A stretch of DNA of 32,168 nucleotides from NCBI GenBank assembly GCA_900313515.1, contig OMRK01000165.1, positions 1 through 32,168 of the forward strand, read 5' to 3'. The translations under genes were made by a program, and so were the position numbers. The notes below the pieces were generated by a model. The model saw nothing but the letters and a program-made list of their open reading frames with translations, made no database searches and was not told the origin of the DNA. Numbering within the stretch: the stretch's first letter is position 1; every line of letters starts with the position of its first letter. Shown here piece by piece: positions 13,823-28,485 of this stretch. This DNA comes from an uncultured bacterium. Its GTDB lineage: Bacteria; Vulcanimicrobiota; Xenobia; Xenobiales; Xenobiaceae.

Positions 13823-15958
13823 CTACTCTTCGGAAGATTTGCTGGAAGCTTTGGACCTCTTGCCGCTGATGATTTCTGCACTTGACTTTATATACAGACC
13901 GTCCTTTTCCAGCTTAGCTGTGGTGTAAGAAGAACCAATAAGGTCACTAGCCTTTTCCCAGAGCTCGGTTAAGCTGCGCAACCTGCTGCTGTTTTCCTTG
14001 CCCGCTAAAGCACAGGCGGCTCGGATTCCCTGAGCAGTCTCCTCTCTGTTAACAGCTCCATCCTCACAGATCAGTACAACGCCGCGATTTTCACCATTTT
14101 TCACAAAATTTTCCAAAGGCTTGGCTTTAATCCAGCTATTTTTGGAAGTACCGGAGGCTATTTCGTCAACCATAGCTTCGGGAGCTACATTCAAGCAGAG
14201 CAAAAGCTGCTCGTTGGTAACCGCCAAATATAAGTCTGAACCAAATGGCAACTTGTATACCTCGGCTCCCTCATCGGTCTTATGACTTGGGAAAGCCGCC
14301 ATAAACATATTTACCTGGGGGAACTTGGCAATAAAGGACTCAAAAGACTTCCTATCTTTGAGGCCTATACTTAAGAGTATAGGCAGACTGGCAATTTCAT
14401 CAGGCTCTGCTTTAGCTTCAACCATTTGCTGCCCTTGGATCTTGGCCAACCCCTTAATCGAAATAGCAATTTCACCGCTCAAGACATCATTTAAAAGCTC
14501 ATTCATGCTGGTGCGATTACGGCGCAAGAACTCATCAGGAAGATCGCGCTGAGCCTTCAACTGAGGCGTAGCCCCCATAATCTCATAGACTAAGTCCCAC
14601 AATGCCCGTCCGTTAAAGGCAACGACACTGGTAAACGAGCTGGGATGATATTTCAAGGAATTGAAAGTGATGTTGTTGTTGGCATTAAAGAAACGTCGTC
14701 CATAGGTAGCGGCTCCTGCCACTTTAGGATCGCAGGCCACATATCCGTTAAAATCTAAGTGTTTGCCCTTACCAGCCCCCAAGATCCGACTTCTAAAAAC
14801 GCCATAACGCAGGGATTTGACCAAATCGCTGTTATTTTTAGCGAATCCCTTCTCTTGGGGCAGATATTCACTTAAGCCCACATCATTCATGATTTTTTCC
14901 ACATCGATGTAAGACAAAAGCACATCCTGCTTACCGATCTTACCAACAGCCTTATCGTAGTTATCGTTGTAAGCAAGTGAATCCGTACCGCGGTTGGCGC
15001 CGAGGATCGTCTTGAGATCTTCCAAAGAAGTTCCTACGTAAAGAGTATTATTGCTAATGGCCCAGGAAAAGCCTCGCACACCCTCAGGAGCATGTATAGT
15101 AGTGAAGTTCTCTTTGGCCTTGATATATTTCAGGCTACTGTCTCCCTTCACACAGGCCTCCTGAACCTTCTGCATAGTTTTTTCCAACGGAGCACCGACC
15201 CTAAACCTTTGCATGCAAACGAACAAGGCCCCATCCTCTCCTACTTCGCCGCCTTCCTTGCGTAGCCTGACAATTATAGCTCCGGCTCCATCGGCGTAAG
15301 AACTGAGCTCTTTAATGAAATTTTGCTCAGAGGTATTGGACATAGCCGTATTCAAGCGATCGGTAAGCTCTGGGGTCTCCCCTATAACTTTGACAGCACT
15401 GCCAAAAAGACTATTAAACTCACTGTCGCGCGTAAGATCATAAGCGAATAAAAACACCGTATCCCGCGGCGCCATCTTGACGGCCTGCTCGATCATATCA
15501 ACAGAGCCTCCGCCAAAATTGATGGTTTTTATCACAACAAACAAGCCTATTATAAGAACAATAATCAAGCCTATGATCAGATTGCGATGGGAAGGTTTCT
15601 TCACTTCCTCTATGCGAGGCTCATTATTGAAACTATCAAGCCGCTCTTGTTCTTCCCATTCTTCATCGGAAAATGGGCCAGCTACTCTCGGCTTGCCAGT
15701 TCCCGGTAACTCGTCGTTAGCCCCTCTAAAGCTTTGAGCTTCCAAATCAGGCTTGCTTGACTTGCTTTCCTCCGAATCCCCATTCGCGCCACTTTTAGCC
15801 CCATCATTGGAGTTCTGCCGAGCGACATCATCATCGGAGTAACTCAAATCCTCATCCACAAAATTTTCAGGACTCCTCCAACTGACCTTCGGCCTTTCCT
15901 CTTGCCTGCCGCCAGGATCAGCAGCCACCTTAGCATCATCTATATATCTGTTATCCAT
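13823..15958 (-). CDS. DUF3352-like single-pass membrane protein
   Basis: This is a 711-residue protein of unknown function. The first about 125 residues are acidic, Ser/Asp/Glu-rich and probably disordered in the cytoplasm. One membrane segment follows (about 126-147, LIIGLIIVLIIGLFVVI). The large extracytoplasmic part begins with AVKMAPRDTVFLFAYDL, a pattern like the start of DUF3352 proteins, and contains repeated alpha/beta stretches such as ISNNTLYVGTSLEDLKTIL and VTNEQLLLCLNVAPEAMVD. Motif positions in the two halves suggest a duplicated fold. The ATG has AGGAGG 12 bases upstream. It is divergent from the zinc-ribbon gene 201 bp away and converges on the carboxyltransferase terminator. 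The DUF assignment is by eye. Confidence 0.7.
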   Translation of the reverse strand: MDNRYIDDAKVAADPGGRQEERPKVSWRSPENFVDEDLSYSDDDVARQNSNDGAKSGANGDSEESKSSKPDLEAQSFRGANDELPGTGKPRVAGPFSDEEWEEQERLDSFNNEPRIEEVKKPSHRNLIIGLIIVLIIGLFVVIKTINFGGGSVDMIEQAVKMAPRDTVFLFAYDLTRDSEFNSLFGSAVKVIGETPELTDRLNTAMSNTSEQNFIKELSSYADGAGAIIVRLRKEGGEVGEDGALFVCMQRFRVGAPLEKTMQKVQEACVKGDSSLKYIKAKENFTTIHAPEGVRGFSWAISNNTLYVGTSLEDLKTILGANRGTDSLAYNDNYDKAVGKIGKQDVLLSYIDVEKIMNDVGLSEYLPQEKGFAKNNSDLVKSLRYGVFRSRILGAGKGKHLDFNGYVACDPKVAGAATYGRRFFNANNNITFNSLKYHPSSFTSVVAFNGRALWDLVYEIMGATPQLKAQRDLPDEFLRRNRTSMNELLNDVLSGEIAISIKGLAKIQGQQMVEAKAEPDEIASLPILLSIGLKDRKSFESFIAKFPQVNMFMAAFPSHKTDEGAEVYKLPFGSDLYLAVTNEQLLLCLNVAPEAMVDEIASGTSKNSWIKAKPLENFVKNGENRGVVLICEDGAVNREETAQGIRAACALAGKENSSRLRSLTELWEKASDLIGSSYTTAKLEKDGLYIKSSAEIISGKRSKASSKSSEE
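14363..14384. other. Perfect intragenic hairpin
   Basis: GCCTATACT-TAAG-AGTATAGGC forms a nine-pair perfect stem with a four-base loop inside the DUF3352-like gene. No T tract follows on either strand. Confidence 0.5.
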
Positions 15959-22203: not shown

Positions 22204-23715
22204 TTGAATAACGATTACTACAACACGGATGATTTTTCAGACTTTTTTTCTGTCTTTCCTAATCAATCTGGATTGTCCAATACAACGAGCAGGCAGAGGT
22301 GTACTGATTTGTACGCAATCTCTGATGATTATGCTCGCCATTGCCAAGCGATACAACCAGGTGGCACGTTAGATTCTCCCCTGCGAGTCAGCCAAGTTAT
22401 AAGGATACTCAACTCCTTATTTAAAAATGAACAAGATCTGCAATTTTGCGTGCGGGGCGAGCTTAGAGAACCTAAACCGTACAGTAGCGGTCACTTTTAT
22501 TTTTCGCTCTACGATGAAGACGGCAGTGTTATAGCGTGTAGCATGTGGAGAAATCGCATCAGGGCCCGCCAAATAGACGTAACTTCCTTCCATGGCGGCG
22601 AAGCCGTGATTGTTTGCGGAAACTTCGGACTTTACAACAAATCAGGAAAACTGAGCCTGGAGGCACACGACCTCGTCCGCTGCGGTCGCGGCACCCTTCT
22701 GGAAGAGCTGGAGCGCCTGCGCCAGCGCCTCCAAGCCGAGGGACTCTTCGATGATTCAATTAAGGTTCCCCTGCCTATTTTTCCAAGAGTAGTTGGTGTG
22801 GCCACCTCCGCCTCAGGACAGGCCATAAAGGATATATGTAAAACCATCAAAGATCGCTGTCCCCACATAAAAATAGTACTAGCTCCATGTCTATGCCAAG
22901 GTGAGAAGGCCGATCTGTCCATAATAAAGGCATTGAGTCTTCTGGAGGCCCGCCCCGATGTGGACTGCATAATAGTGGGTCGCGGCGGCGGTTCCCAAAG
23001 CGATCTGGAACCGTACAATTCGGAGGAATTGGTGCGCTTCATTGCCAAGTGTCGCAAGCCAATCGTTTCTGCCGTAGGCCACGAAGGAGACACCAGCCTG
23101 ACTGACTATGTTGCCGATGTCCGAGCCTCTACTCCAACTCGCGCCGCCGAATTAGTCTCCGCACACACCCGGGCAGAATGCCTAGAAAGCCTGCAACGCC
23201 TAAACAACAGGATTTTTGATTATCTAAGCCGTGATCTCTTTTTCCGCCAAGATTTACTCGAAAAGCTTAGAGAACGACTGCCCCGTATCATCAAAGCCTG
23301 GCTAGATAAGCAATGGACCGACTTAGGACATCTGGAAAGACAGTTGGTACTTCTCAATCCTAAGCATGCTCTGCCAACCAAAGTGGAGAAGCTAAATAGC
23401 ACCCGTGAACGCCTTATCAAGGCCCTAAAATACCTGTTAGAGTTGCACGAGTCAAAGTTAGAAAAAGTTCAAGTCGATCTAGAGCATGCTTATGCAGTCT
23501 ATTTGCACAACCAACAGGAATTACTCAATAAATTGGATTTGAAGCTTGGAGCTTTTTCGCCAGAACATATTTTGGACAGGGGGTATGCTATAGTTACAAC
23601 TGCCGATGGCCGTATTCTGAATAGAATTGTTGAAAATGGCACTCAACTTAGCATCATAATCAAGGCTGGCTGCTTGAAGGCTGAAGTAACCGACAACCGA
23701 CAAAATATTCCCTAG
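22204..23715 (+). CDS. xseA: Exodeoxyribonuclease VII large subunit
   Basis: XseA is the catalytic subunit of exonuclease VII, which degrades single-stranded DNA from both ends. The 503-residue protein has an N-terminal OB fold (VSQVIRILNSLFK, FCVRGELREP, GHFYFSLYDEDGSV) and the core with VGVATSASGQAIKDI, IIVGRGGGSQSDLEPYN, PIVSAVGHEGDTSLTDYVAD and RASTPTRAAEL. A long coiled-coil region and a C-terminal segment (HILDRGYAIVTTADG) follow. An unusual 55-residue polar N-terminal extension (Asp/Tyr/Ser-rich) precedes the OB fold. The start is TTG with AAGGA eight bases upstream. Normally xseB follows directly; here it is about 1.9 kb away behind a membrane-protein gene. Confidence 0.96.
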   Translation: MNNDYYNTDDFSDFFSVFPNQSGLSNTTSRQRCTDLYAISDDYARHCQAIQPGGTLDSPLRVSQVIRILNSLFKNEQDLQFCVRGELREPKPYSSGHFYFSLYDEDGSVIACSMWRNRIRARQIDVTSFHGGEAVIVCGNFGLYNKSGKLSLEAHDLVRCGRGTLLEELERLRQRLQAEGLFDDSIKVPLPIFPRVVGVATSASGQAIKDICKTIKDRCPHIKIVLAPCLCQGEKADLSIIKALSLLEARPDVDCIIVGRGGGSQSDLEPYNSEELVRFIAKCRKPIVSAVGHEGDTSLTDYVADVRASTPTRAAELVSAHTRAECLESLQRLNNRIFDYLSRDLFFRQDLLEKLRERLPRIIKAWLDKQWTDLGHLERQLVLLNPKHALPTKVEKLNSTRERLIKALKYLLELHESKLEKVQVDLEHAYAVYLHNQQELLNKLDLKLGAFSPEHILDRGYAIVTTADGRILNRIVENGTQLSIIIKAGCLKAEVTDNRQNIP

Positions 23716-23802
23716 CCTAGAATACGGTTGCTTCCGAACAAAAACACCGAAACGACCAGACAGCTTTCAAATTTATCGCTTTTCAACTATCATGCACTGG
23801 TC

Positions 23803-23807
23803 GGGAG
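23803..23807 (+). promoter_or_regulatory. Shine-Dalgarno that points to a GTG start at 23816
   Basis: GGGAG lies eight bases before GTG at 23816. An in-frame ATG at 23792 has no ribosome site, so the shorter start is preferred for the GT-C-like gene. Confidence 0.6.
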
Positions 23808-23815
23808 TTAAAGTA

Positions 23816-25387
23816 GTGAAGAAAAAAGTTCTCTATACGATCTATATATTGCTATTGCCAGTTTATGCCTTCTATATCTATTACTGCTTTGCCAGAATAC
23901 CGCTCACTTCTGACATGGCCAACCTTATCTTAGAAGCAGATGACATCCTGCATGGTAATCTATTTTTAAGCGGCTGGTACCTGACCGGTGCAACCTTTCT
24001 CACCACGGAGTTGCTGTATTTCACGATCGGCACGTTAATAAACGGCGTAAACCAGCAAGCCTATATACTGGCAGAGACTCTCATGTTTGTGGCGGCTTTC
24101 AGCTCTGCACTGCTGTTGCTGAAATTTTCATCCAGGTACGAAACCCCACTATGTTATATCCTACTCTTTATATCGTTGACAGCCGTACCTTCCATAGGCT
24201 GGTGCACAATGGCGAAAGTTCATCTTGGCTGGGTAGGCTGGGGATTCTTAGCTCTGTATTTCCTGGCCAAAGCTCATGACCGATTTGCTCAAGGAGAAAC
24301 AAAGCAGCCAAGCAATACTGCCGTACAATTCCTGTTGGCGGCCTCGTTGTTTTTAACTTTAGCTATTACAGGCGATGCTCTAGCAATTTTAACCATAGCA
24401 GTGCCAACACTTATAGTATCAAGTTTAGAACTAATCAAGCAGTTCAATATTACAAGAACTTGGAAATCTACGAACAAATCGAGCCTATATGCCATACTGG
24501 CCACAGTAGTGCCTATAGTGCTGGCTAAACTGATCAATGTGTTATACCTGAAAGCGGGAAAAGCTGATATTACGTACCAAGTTGATGGAGCACTCCATTT
24601 TCTCTCCTACAATGATATAACCAACAGTTTGATAAACTACGCCTTCAACATTTCCACCATATTTAATGCGGATATCCAATATCTGTCGCTGAGCTTATTC
24701 TATGTTATAACTCTTTTGCCGCGTTTAATCATCTTGCTGGTTGCCTTGTATGTCGTTTTCCGCAATGTATTGAGAAGTTTGCTGCTTCGTCTATCTGAGG
24801 ATTACGTTAGTCTAATACTGAGCTGGGGAATTTTCATTGTTTCAAGCGTATGTATCCTGTCTAACTTTAATGCCGGACGATACTATTCCTATGCCCCCTT
24901 TGCTCTCGTCCTTATCCTAGTAAGATACCTCCAAGCAGCTCCGCTACAAATCATCTCCACCAAGTTGTCTAAGCCTATAATTCTGGCAACAGCATGCTTC
25001 TTTATGGCTGCATCTCTATACCCTCCTGTGAGTTTCAGTGCAGCCATAAATCCCAGAACGGAAATGCTTATAAATGTGCTTAAAAATTACAATTTAACTA
25101 GTGGATACGGTTCATATTGGTGTTCTTCAGTTATAACTGCAGCCTCCAACAAGGAAGTAACTGTGCGTTCCATATCAGTCAACAATTCGAAACTAAGCCT
25201 GATGACTTGGTTCTGCAAGAAATCTTGGTATGATGCACCAGCAAATTTCGTAATAACCCACCCGGCCGCCACAACAATGACCGAAAATGACGTGCTAAGA
25301 GATCTGGGTCAACCTCAGGCGATCATACCAGCAGCCGATTTTAAAATTTATGTTTACGATCACGATATTTCTCCCCTGGTGAGATGA
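23816..25387 (+). CDS. Polytopic membrane protein, GT-C glycosyltransferase-like
   Basis: This protein of about 523 residues has some ten to twelve hydrophobic segments. An N-terminal segment (VLYTIYILLLPVYAFYIYY) leads to a first extracytoplasmic loop with LTSDMANLILEADDILHGN, followed by LFLSGWYLTG and FLTTELLYF. Acidic residues after the first membrane helix and this GW...TTEL pattern recall GT-C enzymes, which transfer sugars from polyprenyl-phosphate donors. The C terminus is a soluble domain of about 100 residues. The gene is A+T-richer than its neighbours (line 24661-24720 has 21 G+C of 60; 26101-26160 in ispA has 39 of 60). It splits the usual xseA-xseB pair, so it may be a transferred insertion. 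Donor and acceptor are unknown; a plain transporter-like protein is possible. Confidence 0.6.
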   Translation: MKKKVLYTIYILLLPVYAFYIYYCFARIPLTSDMANLILEADDILHGNLFLSGWYLTGATFLTTELLYFTIGTLINGVNQQAYILAETLMFVAAFSSALLLLKFSSRYETPLCYILLFISLTAVPSIGWCTMAKVHLGWVGWGFLALYFLAKAHDRFAQGETKQPSNTAVQFLLAASLFLTLAITGDALAILTIAVPTLIVSSLELIKQFNITRTWKSTNKSSLYAILATVVPIVLAKLINVLYLKAGKADITYQVDGALHFLSYNDITNSLINYAFNISTIFNADIQYLSLSLFYVITLLPRLIILLVALYVVFRNVLRSLLLRLSEDYVSLILSWGIFIVSSVCILSNFNAGRYYSYAPFALVLILVRYLQAAPLQIISTKLSKPIILATACFFMAASLYPPVSFSAAINPRTEMLINVLKNYNLTSGYGSYWCSSVITAASNKEVTVRSISVNNSKLSLMTWFCKKSWYDAPANFVITHPAATTMTENDVLRDLGQPQAIIPAADFKIYVYDHDISPLVR

Positions 25388-25593
25388 GTTCAAATATGCG
25401 ACCACCATTGTATGCTGTAAGATCCCAACCTTTAGGAAGGGGTATACAAGGCGCGTCCAGTCGAAGTCAGACCTTTTCTTGCAATTATTAGCGTTATTTT
25501 CATAAGGTGATGAAGAAAATGTAAGGCAGGTTCTGCAAGGCGAACCTGGTAACTAGATTTCTCGCATGCGTAATTTTGAAAAGGAGAACCTTA
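25388..25593 (+). other. Structured leader of xseB
   Basis: This 206-base spacer holds two hairpins. The first is TTGTAT (25408-25413) with ATACAA (25444-25449), enclosing CCTT-TAGG-AAGG. The second is CAGGTTC (25527-25533) with GAACCTG (25542-25548). A tiny ORF (ATG AAG AAA ATG TAA, 25510-25524) lies just before the second hairpin, with AAGGTG directly upstream. No longer gene is visible. Confidence 0.4.
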
Positions 25594-25815
25594 ATGCCTG
25601 AATCTTCTGAAATAAGCTCCGAATTAAAGGCAGCCCCCCAAAGCTATGAGGAAGCCTTTGCTCAACTGAACAACATTGTTAAAACATTGGAGAGCAATCA
25701 GTTAGATTTGAAGACTGCCCTCGAACTTACCGCCAAGGCCAAAGACCTTTCAGCTTACTGTCGAAGCCAGTTGCAGGAAGCACAGAAGCAATTGGAAGAA
25801 CTCCAAGGCGATTAA
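25594..25815 (+). CDS. xseB: Exodeoxyribonuclease VII small subunit
   Basis: XseB is the small helical subunit that binds several-fold around XseA. The 73-residue protein shows the family pattern SYEEAFAQLNNIVKTLES, a linker, and LTAKAKDLSAYCRSQLQEAQKQLEEL with the conserved Cys before the last helix. The ATG has AAGGAG seven bases upstream, which excludes an 18-base longer reading (25576). It lies 100 bp ahead of ispA, the classical order. Confidence 0.93.
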   Translation: MPESSEISSELKAAPQSYEEAFAQLNNIVKTLESNQLDLKTALELTAKAKDLSAYCRSQLQEAQKQLEELQGD

Positions 25816-25916: not shown

Positions 25917-26780
25917 ATGTTTGATACTGTTCATTTTGATCTAAAAGGTTACTTAAATAAAGAGGCTCAGATAGTCAACCAGGCTCTGGAGAATTATCTT
26001 CCCAAGCAGGGCCAGTATGCTAAAAACCTGGGTGAGGTGATGCGCTACAGCGTATTTCCTGGTGGTAAGCGCTTCCGCCCCATACTGACTCTCTCCACTG
26101 CCGCCGCCCTCAATGCAGATCCGGCCCTAGCACTTCCTGCCGCCTGTGCCTTTGAACTGGTACACTGTTTCTCCCTGGTGCACGATGATCTGCCTTGCAT
26201 GGACAATGACGATTTTCGTCGCGGCAAACCCACCGTGCACAAGGCTTACGGCGAGGATACGGCCCTCCTGGCTGGCGATGCCCTGATTATCGAAGCCTTC
26301 AATGTGGCAGCTCAAACCAACGTTCCCAATCACCCAGAAATTACCGGGGCCATTGTTAGGGAGACGGCTCTGGCAGCAGGTCATCTGGGTATGGTAGGTG
26401 GTCAGATCCTGGACATGGATGCTCAGCATCATGGAGCCACCAAGGAAAGTCTTCTGGAGGTACATAAAGGCAAAACTGGTGCCTTAATTCGCGGTGCAGC
26501 CCGTGCTGGTGCTATAGTTGCTGGCGCCTCCCCCAAGCAATTGGAGGAGATAACCGAGTACAGTGAAATCTTGGGCCTAGTTTTCCAAATTACCGACGAT
26601 ATTTTAGATGCCCAAAGTGATCCCGATCCCATAAGTTTCCCAACCTTGTTTGGAATGGAGGAATCCAAGCGCATAGCCCAAGAAAAGACCAACCGCGCCC
26701 TGCAGATTCTTGAGCCTTGGGGTGAGAAGGCGCTACCGTTGGCTGCTTTGGCCAATTATCTTTTGGTGCGCACAGTTTAG
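25917..26780 (+). CDS. ispA: Farnesyl/geranyl diphosphate synthase (IspA-type short-chain prenyltransferase)
   Basis: IspA condenses IPP with DMAPP and GPP to make farnesyl diphosphate, precursor of undecaprenyl carriers and quinones. The 287-residue protein has GGKRFRP (49-55), the first Asp-rich motif with D90, D91 and D96 (HDDLPCMDNDD), RRGKPTVHKAYGE, LLAGDAL, the HKGKTGALI segment (183-191) and the second motif ITDDILD (D227, D228, D231). Normally a segment like LGKxxGxDxxxxKxTYP follows; here about 12-15 residues carrying its two lysines are missing, and the chain runs straight from DDILDAQSDPDP to ISFPTLFGMEESK. The ATG has AAGGA five bases upstream. Reduced or altered catalysis is possible; otherwise the enzyme looks intact. 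Confidence 0.92.
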   Translation: MFDTVHFDLKGYLNKEAQIVNQALENYLPKQGQYAKNLGEVMRYSVFPGGKRFRPILTLSTAAALNADPALALPAACAFELVHCFSLVHDDLPCMDNDDFRRGKPTVHKAYGEDTALLAGDALIIEAFNVAAQTNVPNHPEITGAIVRETALAAGHLGMVGGQILDMDAQHHGATKESLLEVHKGKTGALIRGAARAGAIVAGASPKQLEEITEYSEILGLVFQITDDILDAQSDPDPISFPTLFGMEESKRIAQEKTNRALQILEPWGEKALPLAALANYLLVRTV

Positions 26781-26880: not shown

Positions 26881-28485
26881 GTGGGCGGTGGGAGTATGTC
26901 ACAGTACGATAATCTAGAAGAAGTGAGTGAAGTCCTCACCGAGACCCTGCAGGCTCTTTCTTTTCGTGACGTGGCCTGGCGTGGCTTTTACGGCGACCGT
27001 TACTATTCACAAGTTCGCCGTTACAGCCACAGTTTGGCTTCTCTGGCCTCTCTGGCTTCCAGCGACGTGGCCTTGTGCCACCTAGCAGCCGGATGGAAGC
27101 GGGCCCGGGCCGTGTTACCCAGTGGCCTTTCCCTTATAGGCAACGAGCAACCTCTAGTCATTGTAATCAACGATCTCTCTTCGCTTCTGTTCCACACCTT
27201 AGAGACTCTACGGCAGGGACGCCTGGAGGCGATTGTTGTCTTTTTAGATCCTCAAAGGCGCTACATTGGCAACTTTTACGACGAGAAAGCCAAAGAGATT
27301 TGCAGTTACCCTGGTATTTTTGCCGCCGCTCGCCATATTCTGTATCCGCCGCCGGTGGACGTAGACCATCCCAAGCGCCTTTGCAATATGATGGCCATTC
27401 TAAGCCAGGAACGTGGCATCAAGATACTGCATATTCTAGGTTCTGCTCTCACCCAAAATTCTGCTTCCAGCATTCCGCGTCTTAAGAGCCAAAGTTCCGA
27501 AAGATTCTCGGCGTCGTTTGCCACTGAACCTGCAGTCAAGCGCTCTCCCAAGCTCAAACCCGGTGATCTAACCTTTGAACAGTCCGCTCTAAACCGCATA
27601 GCTATCGATCTGCAAAACGTACCTCTGGTCTCCTGCCTATGGACCAGTCCCAAAGATCCTAAACAGTTCCGCCGCCTGCACAACCGCCTGCAATTTTCAC
27701 CTGTAGATGGCGTAGTGCTGCAAGCCGTGGGTATGGCTGCCAGCGGTATCCATCCTCTTATAGTTCTCACAGCTGCTGACATGCCTAAAGTGCTCAGCGA
27801 GCTCTTTGCCATGGCGCCCTTCCCAATAACCATTCTGCTGACCGACGCCGGCTTAACCTCCCAAGGAGATCTTTTGCCCAACGCCAATTTCCACGATTTG
27901 GCCATCCTACGCAGTTTCGAGCATATGCAGGTGGGCGTGCCCTCCGATGAAGAGGAAGCCAGAAGCATGTTGCTAAATCTGTTGGCCTCCTCAACACCTG
28001 GATTACTGCGCTTAAGTAGCACTCCTGCCGTGGGCCTGCCTTCGGCCAAGCATGCCAGGGCAAAAACGAAATTGCAGGGTCGCTGTCTACACGAGGGACA
28101 GGATTTAGCCTTCATATGTTTGGGGAGCATGGCTTACCATGCTCTGCTAGCCTCCCGCACCCTAGAATCCTGGGGATACAAAACTGCAGTCTACGATATG
28201 GGCTGGCTCAATCCATTGGATACTGCCATTTTGGAGAAAGCCGCCAAAACTGGTCGCATAATAACTGTAGAAGAGCATTCTACCGTAGGAGGCCTAGGTT
28301 CAGCCGTTGCCGAGTATATACTGCAACACGTGGAAAATCAGTGCGTACAACTGCGTTCGGCAGGACTCAAGAGTGAACTCTATAGCACTTCTCTGGAGGA
28401 TCACGGACTCTCAATGGAGGGTCTACTCGAGTATGCTAAAGATATATTGCAGATAGAGCACACTCCCAGCTCGGCTAACGGTTGA
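26881..28485 (+). CDS. Degenerate DXS-like protein (probable pseudoenzyme of 1-deoxyxylulose-5-phosphate synthase)
   Basis: This intact 534-residue ORF sits where dxs usually follows ispA. Residues about 405-525 match the DXS C-terminal domain (LAFICLGSMAYHALLASR, MGWLNPLDTAILEKAA, IITVEEHSTVGGLGSAVAEYIL). Residues about 230-380 align with the pyrimidine-binding domain, and the N-terminal part distantly with the thiamine-diphosphate domain. The functional residues are gone. There is no GDG motif (INDLSSLL at its place) and LDPQRR stands where NDN is expected. The activating Glu region (AEQHA in E. coli) reads VDGVV. The THQG histidine is replaced (LLPNANFHD). The first about 110 residues of DXS, including the first catalytic His, are absent. 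The start may be GTG at 26881 or ATG at 26896; neither has an ideal ribosome site. It overlaps the convergent next gene by 11 bases. It may be a structural or regulatory partner of a true DXS. Confidence 0.75.
   Translation: MGGGSMSQYDNLEEVSEVLTETLQALSFRDVAWRGFYGDRYYSQVRRYSHSLASLASLASSDVALCHLAAGWKRARAVLPSGLSLIGNEQPLVIVINDLSSLLFHTLETLRQGRLEAIVVFLDPQRRYIGNFYDEKAKEICSYPGIFAAARHILYPPPVDVDHPKRLCNMMAILSQERGIKILHILGSALTQNSASSIPRLKSQSSERFSASFATEPAVKRSPKLKPGDLTFEQSALNRIAIDLQNVPLVSCLWTSPKDPKQFRRLHNRLQFSPVDGVVLQAVGMAASGIHPLIVLTAADMPKVLSELFAMAPFPITILLTDAGLTSQGDLLPNANFHDLAILRSFEHMQVGVPSDEEEARSMLLNLLASSTPGLLRLSSTPAVGLPSAKHARAKTKLQGRCLHEGQDLAFICLGSMAYHALLASRTLESWGYKTAVYDMGWLNPLDTAILEKAAKTGRIITVEEHSTVGGLGSAVAEYILQHVENQCVQLRSAGLKSELYSTSLEDHGLSMEGLLEYAKDILQIEHTPSSANG

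Follow-up and report, generated by a model that had tools for sequence, protein, structure and literature searches.

The window, by which we mean the whole stretch of 32,168 nucleotides that was analysed, carries on its forward strand the genes for the large and small subunits of exonuclease VII (xseA, 22204..23715, TIGR00237 above cut-off; xseB, 25576..25815, TIGR01280 above cut-off), followed by ispA for farnesyl diphosphate synthase (25917..26780, NF045485 FPPsyn above cut-off and in agreement with synteny) and then by a homologue of DXS on the same strand (26896..28485), which we refer to as pseudo-DXS. In many bacteria the usual place of dxs is downstream of xseA-xseB-ispA, and the genes upstream thus put pseudo-DXS in the locus where many bacteria have dxs, as an earlier note on this DNA had claimed. 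That note had also described an intact frame of 534 codons, and the open frame (26881-28485, plus strand) is indeed unbroken, with 534 codons from a GTG at 26881 or 529 from an ATG at 26896; of the two, the ATG, which follows GGTGGGAGT, is the more probable start. About 115 bases separate ispA from pseudo-DXS in the window, and in most members of the order the two genes abut or overlap. Two further ORFs of the window are without a match in Pfam or NCBIfam, one encoding a 531-aa, membrane-protein-like product between xseA and xseB (23792-25387, plus strand) and the other a product of 711 aa (13823-15958, minus strand).

By family models pseudo-DXS does not qualify as a DXS. Among NCBIfam models it scores best with dxs (TIGR00204), but the 68.8 bits that it reaches lie far below the cut-off of 465.95, and the Pfam search did not find DXP_synthase_N (PF13292), so that the protein fails on both counts; Pfam does recognize Transketolase_C (PF02780, 1e-19), and Transket_pyr stays below threshold. 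In a MAFFT alignment of 12 canonical DXS proteins of the same phylum with 15 pseudo-DXS family members, all three DXS domains can nevertheless be traced. Residues 1 to 225 (26896..27570, plus strand) are a remnant of the DXS ThDP-diphosphate-binding domain, as judged from the alignment, conservation counts and the AlphaFold2 model, and of the 41 DXS-invariant residues aligned here, 8 are still the majority residue. The pyrimidine-domain remnant (residues 226 to 395; 27571..28080, plus strand), delimited by Pfam and the alignment, keeps 19 of 51, and the transketolase C-terminal domain (residues 396 to 529; 28081..28482, plus strand) is the best-kept part with 11 of 13, which agrees with the preservation ascribed to it earlier; another 26 DXS-invariant residues align to gaps in the window protein. 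The earlier estimate that about 110 N-terminal residues are missing was right about the total, which is close to 100, and wrong in placing them in a single N-terminal block, since about 40 to 45 are absent at the N terminus and the remainder in internal loops.

The same alignment reveals the loss of the entire active site. The GDG motif site reads V-I-N-D (residues 90 to 93; 27163..27174, plus strand) and the NDN motif site V-F-L-D-P (residues 115 to 119; 27238..27252, plus strand), so that GDGA is replaced by VIND, NDN by FLDP, AEQHA by PVDGV, and THxG by LLPxN, and the DXS motifs GGHLAS, GHSSTS, KGKGY, and LHG are likewise gone. Around the first two sites, where DXS has SAGLGFAKAR...VVAVIGDGA...DMIVVLNDNEMSI and the window protein HLAAGWKRAR...LVIVIND...EAIVVFLDPQ, the flanks align convincingly. 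The GDG...N Mg-ThDP binding motif is missing from all 15 aligned family members, none of which has a conserved Glu or His at the positions of the catalytic Glu (Val270) or the THQG His (Pro328), and no acidic residue near the Glu position is conserved across these 15 proteins, so that a slight shift of the alignment would not restore the catalytic Glu. The replacement of all four elements, first noticed in the window protein, is therefore a property of its close relatives as well, and pseudo-DXS is predicted from its sequence to be incapable of binding or activating ThDP. What is conserved instead consists mostly of scaffold residues shared with DXS or of new hydrophobic and aromatic positions (W67, W249, P255, W426). 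Invariant or near-invariant polar residues do occur in the family (D118, H179, D334, R372, E459, E460, H461), and no new polar catalytic set was seen among the conserved residues.

Pseudo-DXS is predicted to adopt the DXS fold. AlphaFold2, run on a 12-sequence alignment, returned a model with a pLDDT of 78 and a pTM of 0.72, with a low-confidence loop at residues 188 to 223, and the top 44 Foldseek matches of this model are all DXS (E values from 5.5e-26 to 4.1e-21), followed by transketolase; over the whole chain, TM-scores reach only about 0.5, which leaves the relative placement and packing of the domains in the model uncertain. In a tree built on the pyrimidine and C-terminal domains, from which three rows were left out (two truncated and one on a very long branch), the pseudo-DXS family forms one clade (100/99) that joins DXS as opposed to transketolase, E1-beta and split transketolase (96/81). 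The clade lies outside the DXS of the phylum and is not nested within it, a placement that a long branch could also produce. At the same locus, the class-mate G015 (family f4) has xseA-ispA followed by a canonical DXS, and this synteny, together with the tree and the predicted fold, supports a conversion of dxs into pseudo-DXS in place. Plasmids searched with tblastn held nothing beyond distant DXS or transketolase matches, and a Verrucomicrobia match (L144) was rejected as a family member, as it is, judged by eye, an ordinary transketolase-like protein.

The family spans the whole order. A homologue search of 58 genomes, most of them draft metagenome bins, found relatives of full length in each of the eight f1 genomes, f1 being the window's family, and in G009; the order's six f2 genomes gave shorter matches, but the ORFs extracted there proved to be complete and of the pseudo-DXS kind, and they adjoin ispA wherever the flank was compared. 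Pseudo-DXS is thus present, with an open frame, in 15/15 genomes of the order examined, and it is kept down to about 23% identity. The ispA-pseudo-DXS pair was seen at 13/13 order loci compared, with xseA ahead of it in 12. In nine close pairs dN/dS ranges from 0.06 to 0.22 (0.04 to 0.12 for the neighboring ispA), which places pseudo-DXS under purifying selection.

Canonical DXS is absent from 14/15 order genomes, several of which are 94 to 97% complete. The earlier note had proposed looking for a second, intact dxs in the same genome, and none turned up: no DXP_synthase_N was found in the 2.35-Mb assembly of the window's genome (88.8% complete), and in 13 of the other 14 genomes of the order no canonical DXS rose above the background of transketolase/E1-type matches. 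Run in the same way, the search recovers DXS from class-mates, from most of the phylum and from 13/14 control genomes, although some DXS-less control genomes give a signal through transketolase-type domains. The exception within the order is G001, with a separate PRK12315-type DXS of 590 aa on a contig of 5.8 kb, whose tetranucleotide correlation with four core contigs is 0.23 to 0.46, against 0.48 to 0.62 among the core contigs themselves. The origin of this contig is doubtful, and contamination and recent acquisition are indistinguishable. The same genome also holds a split transketolase pair within an apparent nucleotide-sugar gene cluster (L168, contig C68).

The later MEP pathway, judged on DXR, IspG, and IspH, has been retained. 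DXR and IspH were each found in 14/15 order genomes and IspG in all 15 (partial in G014); in the window's genome the three lie on separate contigs (DXR on C233, IspG on C185, IspH on C53), and its DXR scores 526 bits to the family model. Immediately before dxr in that genome (L146, 1567-5492) is a CdsA-like gene and after it a phosphopentomutase-like gene, both named by eye, and a pentose-phosphate enzyme adjoining dxr could be a lead toward the DXP source. Two IspH (LytB) genes per genome were seen in G008 to G014 (families f2 and f3). IspG is called indispensable in the literature; G015 and G017, both of f4 and 100% and 93% complete, have DXS, DXR, and IspH and gave no IspG match, which may reflect assembly gaps.

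With DXS absent and the later MEP enzymes kept, something else must make DXP. The mevalonate pathway was rejected as a replacement in the window's family, as HMG-CoA reductase was found in none of the eight f1 genomes and, elsewhere in the order, only in G009 and G010, with fragments in G011. The MTA-isoprenoid shunt is excluded as a DXP source by the absence of a RuBisCO-like protein (PF00016) from the 15 order genomes, whereas class-mates of f4 have PF00016. Among ThDP enzymes, searched through the Pfam families Transket_pyr and TPP_enzyme_N (pyruvate:ferredoxin oxidoreductase lies outside both), the sole strong Transket_pyr match in the window's genome (G000) and in G004 is transketolase, and no TPP_enzyme_N enzyme was found in G000 and G002 to G007, which makes an acetolactate-synthase-type substitute in f1 unlikely. 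Five genomes of the phylum outside the order (G037, G044, G047, and G055 of f15 and G045 of f12, 95 to 97% complete) have DXR and lack both canonical DXS and pseudo-DXS. Loss of DXS therefore does not require pseudo-DXS; DXS was apparently lost on more than one occasion within the phylum, where a source of DXP that does not depend on DXS may be more common.

The reading that we favor, with a probability of roughly one half, is that pseudo-DXS is a catalytically dead pseudoenzyme that descends from dxs, occupies the locus of that gene and owes its retention to a binding role, with DXP coming from another route. dxs would have lost its catalytic residues in its own locus and become a dead protein in which the scaffold of DXS and transketolase persists, most of all in the C-terminal domain; made together with IspA, it would most likely serve the synthesis of isoprenoid precursors as a scaffold or a regulatory partner, and the DXP used by DXR would be supplied by another activity. 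A non-catalytic role, a place in isoprenoid metabolism and a replacement source of DXP are all three what we infer. Since the conserved residues are mostly scaffold or hydrophobic and aromatic positions with no new polar catalytic set, a binding protein, probably a scaffold or regulator made with IspA, is their simplest reading; the sequence would also be compatible with a new ligand or activity. The pseudoenzyme proposed in the earlier note, a conserved scaffold without an active site, is thus upheld by motif loss, selection, DXS fold, and synteny, whereas its suggestion of a partner to a separate true DXS finds no support in genomes from which canonical DXS is missing.

A more far-reaching version, which we regard as possible and hold only tentatively, is that DXS was replaced across the order by a new DXP-forming system, involving transketolase or another enzyme, in which the dead DXS serves as an indispensable subunit or scaffold. 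One concrete form of it, rather unlikely in our view, is a prozyme-like subunit: pseudo-DXS would form a hetero-oligomer with a ThDP enzyme, for which the housekeeping transketolase is the most plausible candidate, and would redirect that enzyme to the synthesis of DXP from pyruvate and glyceraldehyde 3-phosphate. This would account together for the retention of a dead DXS and the absence of a live one, the DXS-like scaffold is still preserved, activation of a live partner by a dead paralogue has precedent (PMC5201418), and transketolase is, as described above, the sole strong Transket_pyr match in G000 and G004. However, the transketolase of the window's genome is itself of the ordinary kind, scoring 861 bits to TIGR00232, and the DXR-bearing genomes with neither DXS nor pseudo-DXS count against a strict tie of pseudo-DXS to DXP supply.

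A neofunctionalized enzyme, with a new active site that yields DXP or another isoprenoid-related product without ThDP, is improbable. The exact former position of DXS, the DXR-containing genomes with no other DXS, the strong purifying selection and the conserved polar residues listed above would all suit it, but those residues are mostly scaffold shared with DXS, no new polar motif was seen, and the N-terminal domain, a possible place for a new site, is the least conserved part of the protein. Slightly less likely again is that pseudo-DXS regulates a true DXS which the assemblies do not include or which came in by horizontal transfer, possibly as in G001; the 590-aa enzyme of that genome is what speaks for it, and against it stand the weaker tetranucleotide fit of its short contig and the 14 DXS-less order genomes, set beside a search that detects DXS in controls and class-mates. 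A decaying pseudogene or dxs relic, which the loss of every catalytic residue might suggest and the earlier note had already denied, can be dismissed on the dN/dS values, the frame open throughout the order, the retention at low identity and the tight coupling to ispA.

These findings make pseudo-DXS a concrete target for pull-down experiments and the order genomes a set in which to seek the missing DXP source, and they serve as a warning for annotation that a transketolase-domain ORF in the dxs position is not necessarily a DXS. In its predicted fold, three-domain order, ispA-adjacent locus, C-terminal residues, and nearest tree clade, pseudo-DXS resembles canonical DXS (TIGR00204); it differs in having no GDG/NDN Mg-ThDP site, catalytic Glu or His, in being about 100 residues shorter and in scoring far under the cut-off. 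Its top single-sequence PDB match is the C-terminal subunit of a split transketolase (6yaj), which it resembles over residues 308 to 489 in its pyrimidine and C-terminal domains, but identity with such a subunit was rejected because pseudo-DXS groups with DXS in the tree and has an N-terminal domain alignable to DXS; it also lacks the catalytic Glu.

The earlier statement that no DXS pseudoenzyme has been described does not stand as worded, as plant class-3 DXS (DXS3, for example SlDXS3) was reported to be a DXS homologue without DXS activity or a TPP-binding site (PMC10675008). A DXS pseudoenzyme as such is thus not new. Plants, however, have active DXS1 and DXS2 alongside, and pseudo-DXS is a separate occurrence, in a bacterial order of which 14/15 genomes lack canonical DXS; the statement holds in that we found no such protein described as the sole dxs descendant of an organism with the MEP pathway. 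A whole bacterial order with a dead but selected sole descendant of dxs appears to be new, as no earlier description was found in the open-access literature, which was the scope of our search.

A survey listed 181 bacterial species as candidates for having the MEP pathway without DXS, and for most of them no substitute is known (PMC10663253). The order described here resembles them in its later MEP enzymes, missing DXS and open mechanism, and differs in that its dxs locus is occupied throughout by a dead but conserved DXS, which makes the order a clean and deep case with a molecular trace, dxs itself persisting as a dead protein. That DXP can come from other enzymes is known from E. coli, where mutant AceE or RibB is able to supply it (RibB suppressors G108S and D113G; PMC3424233). 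The prozyme of trypanosome AdoMet decarboxylase is a dead homologue that activates a live partner (PMC5201418); no live paralogue of pseudo-DXS was found in the order genomes, in which respect the two differ, yet both are catalytically dead homologues maintained by selection, and among the alternatives the most exciting, and one that can be put to the test, is a prozyme-like model that casts transketolase as the live partner.
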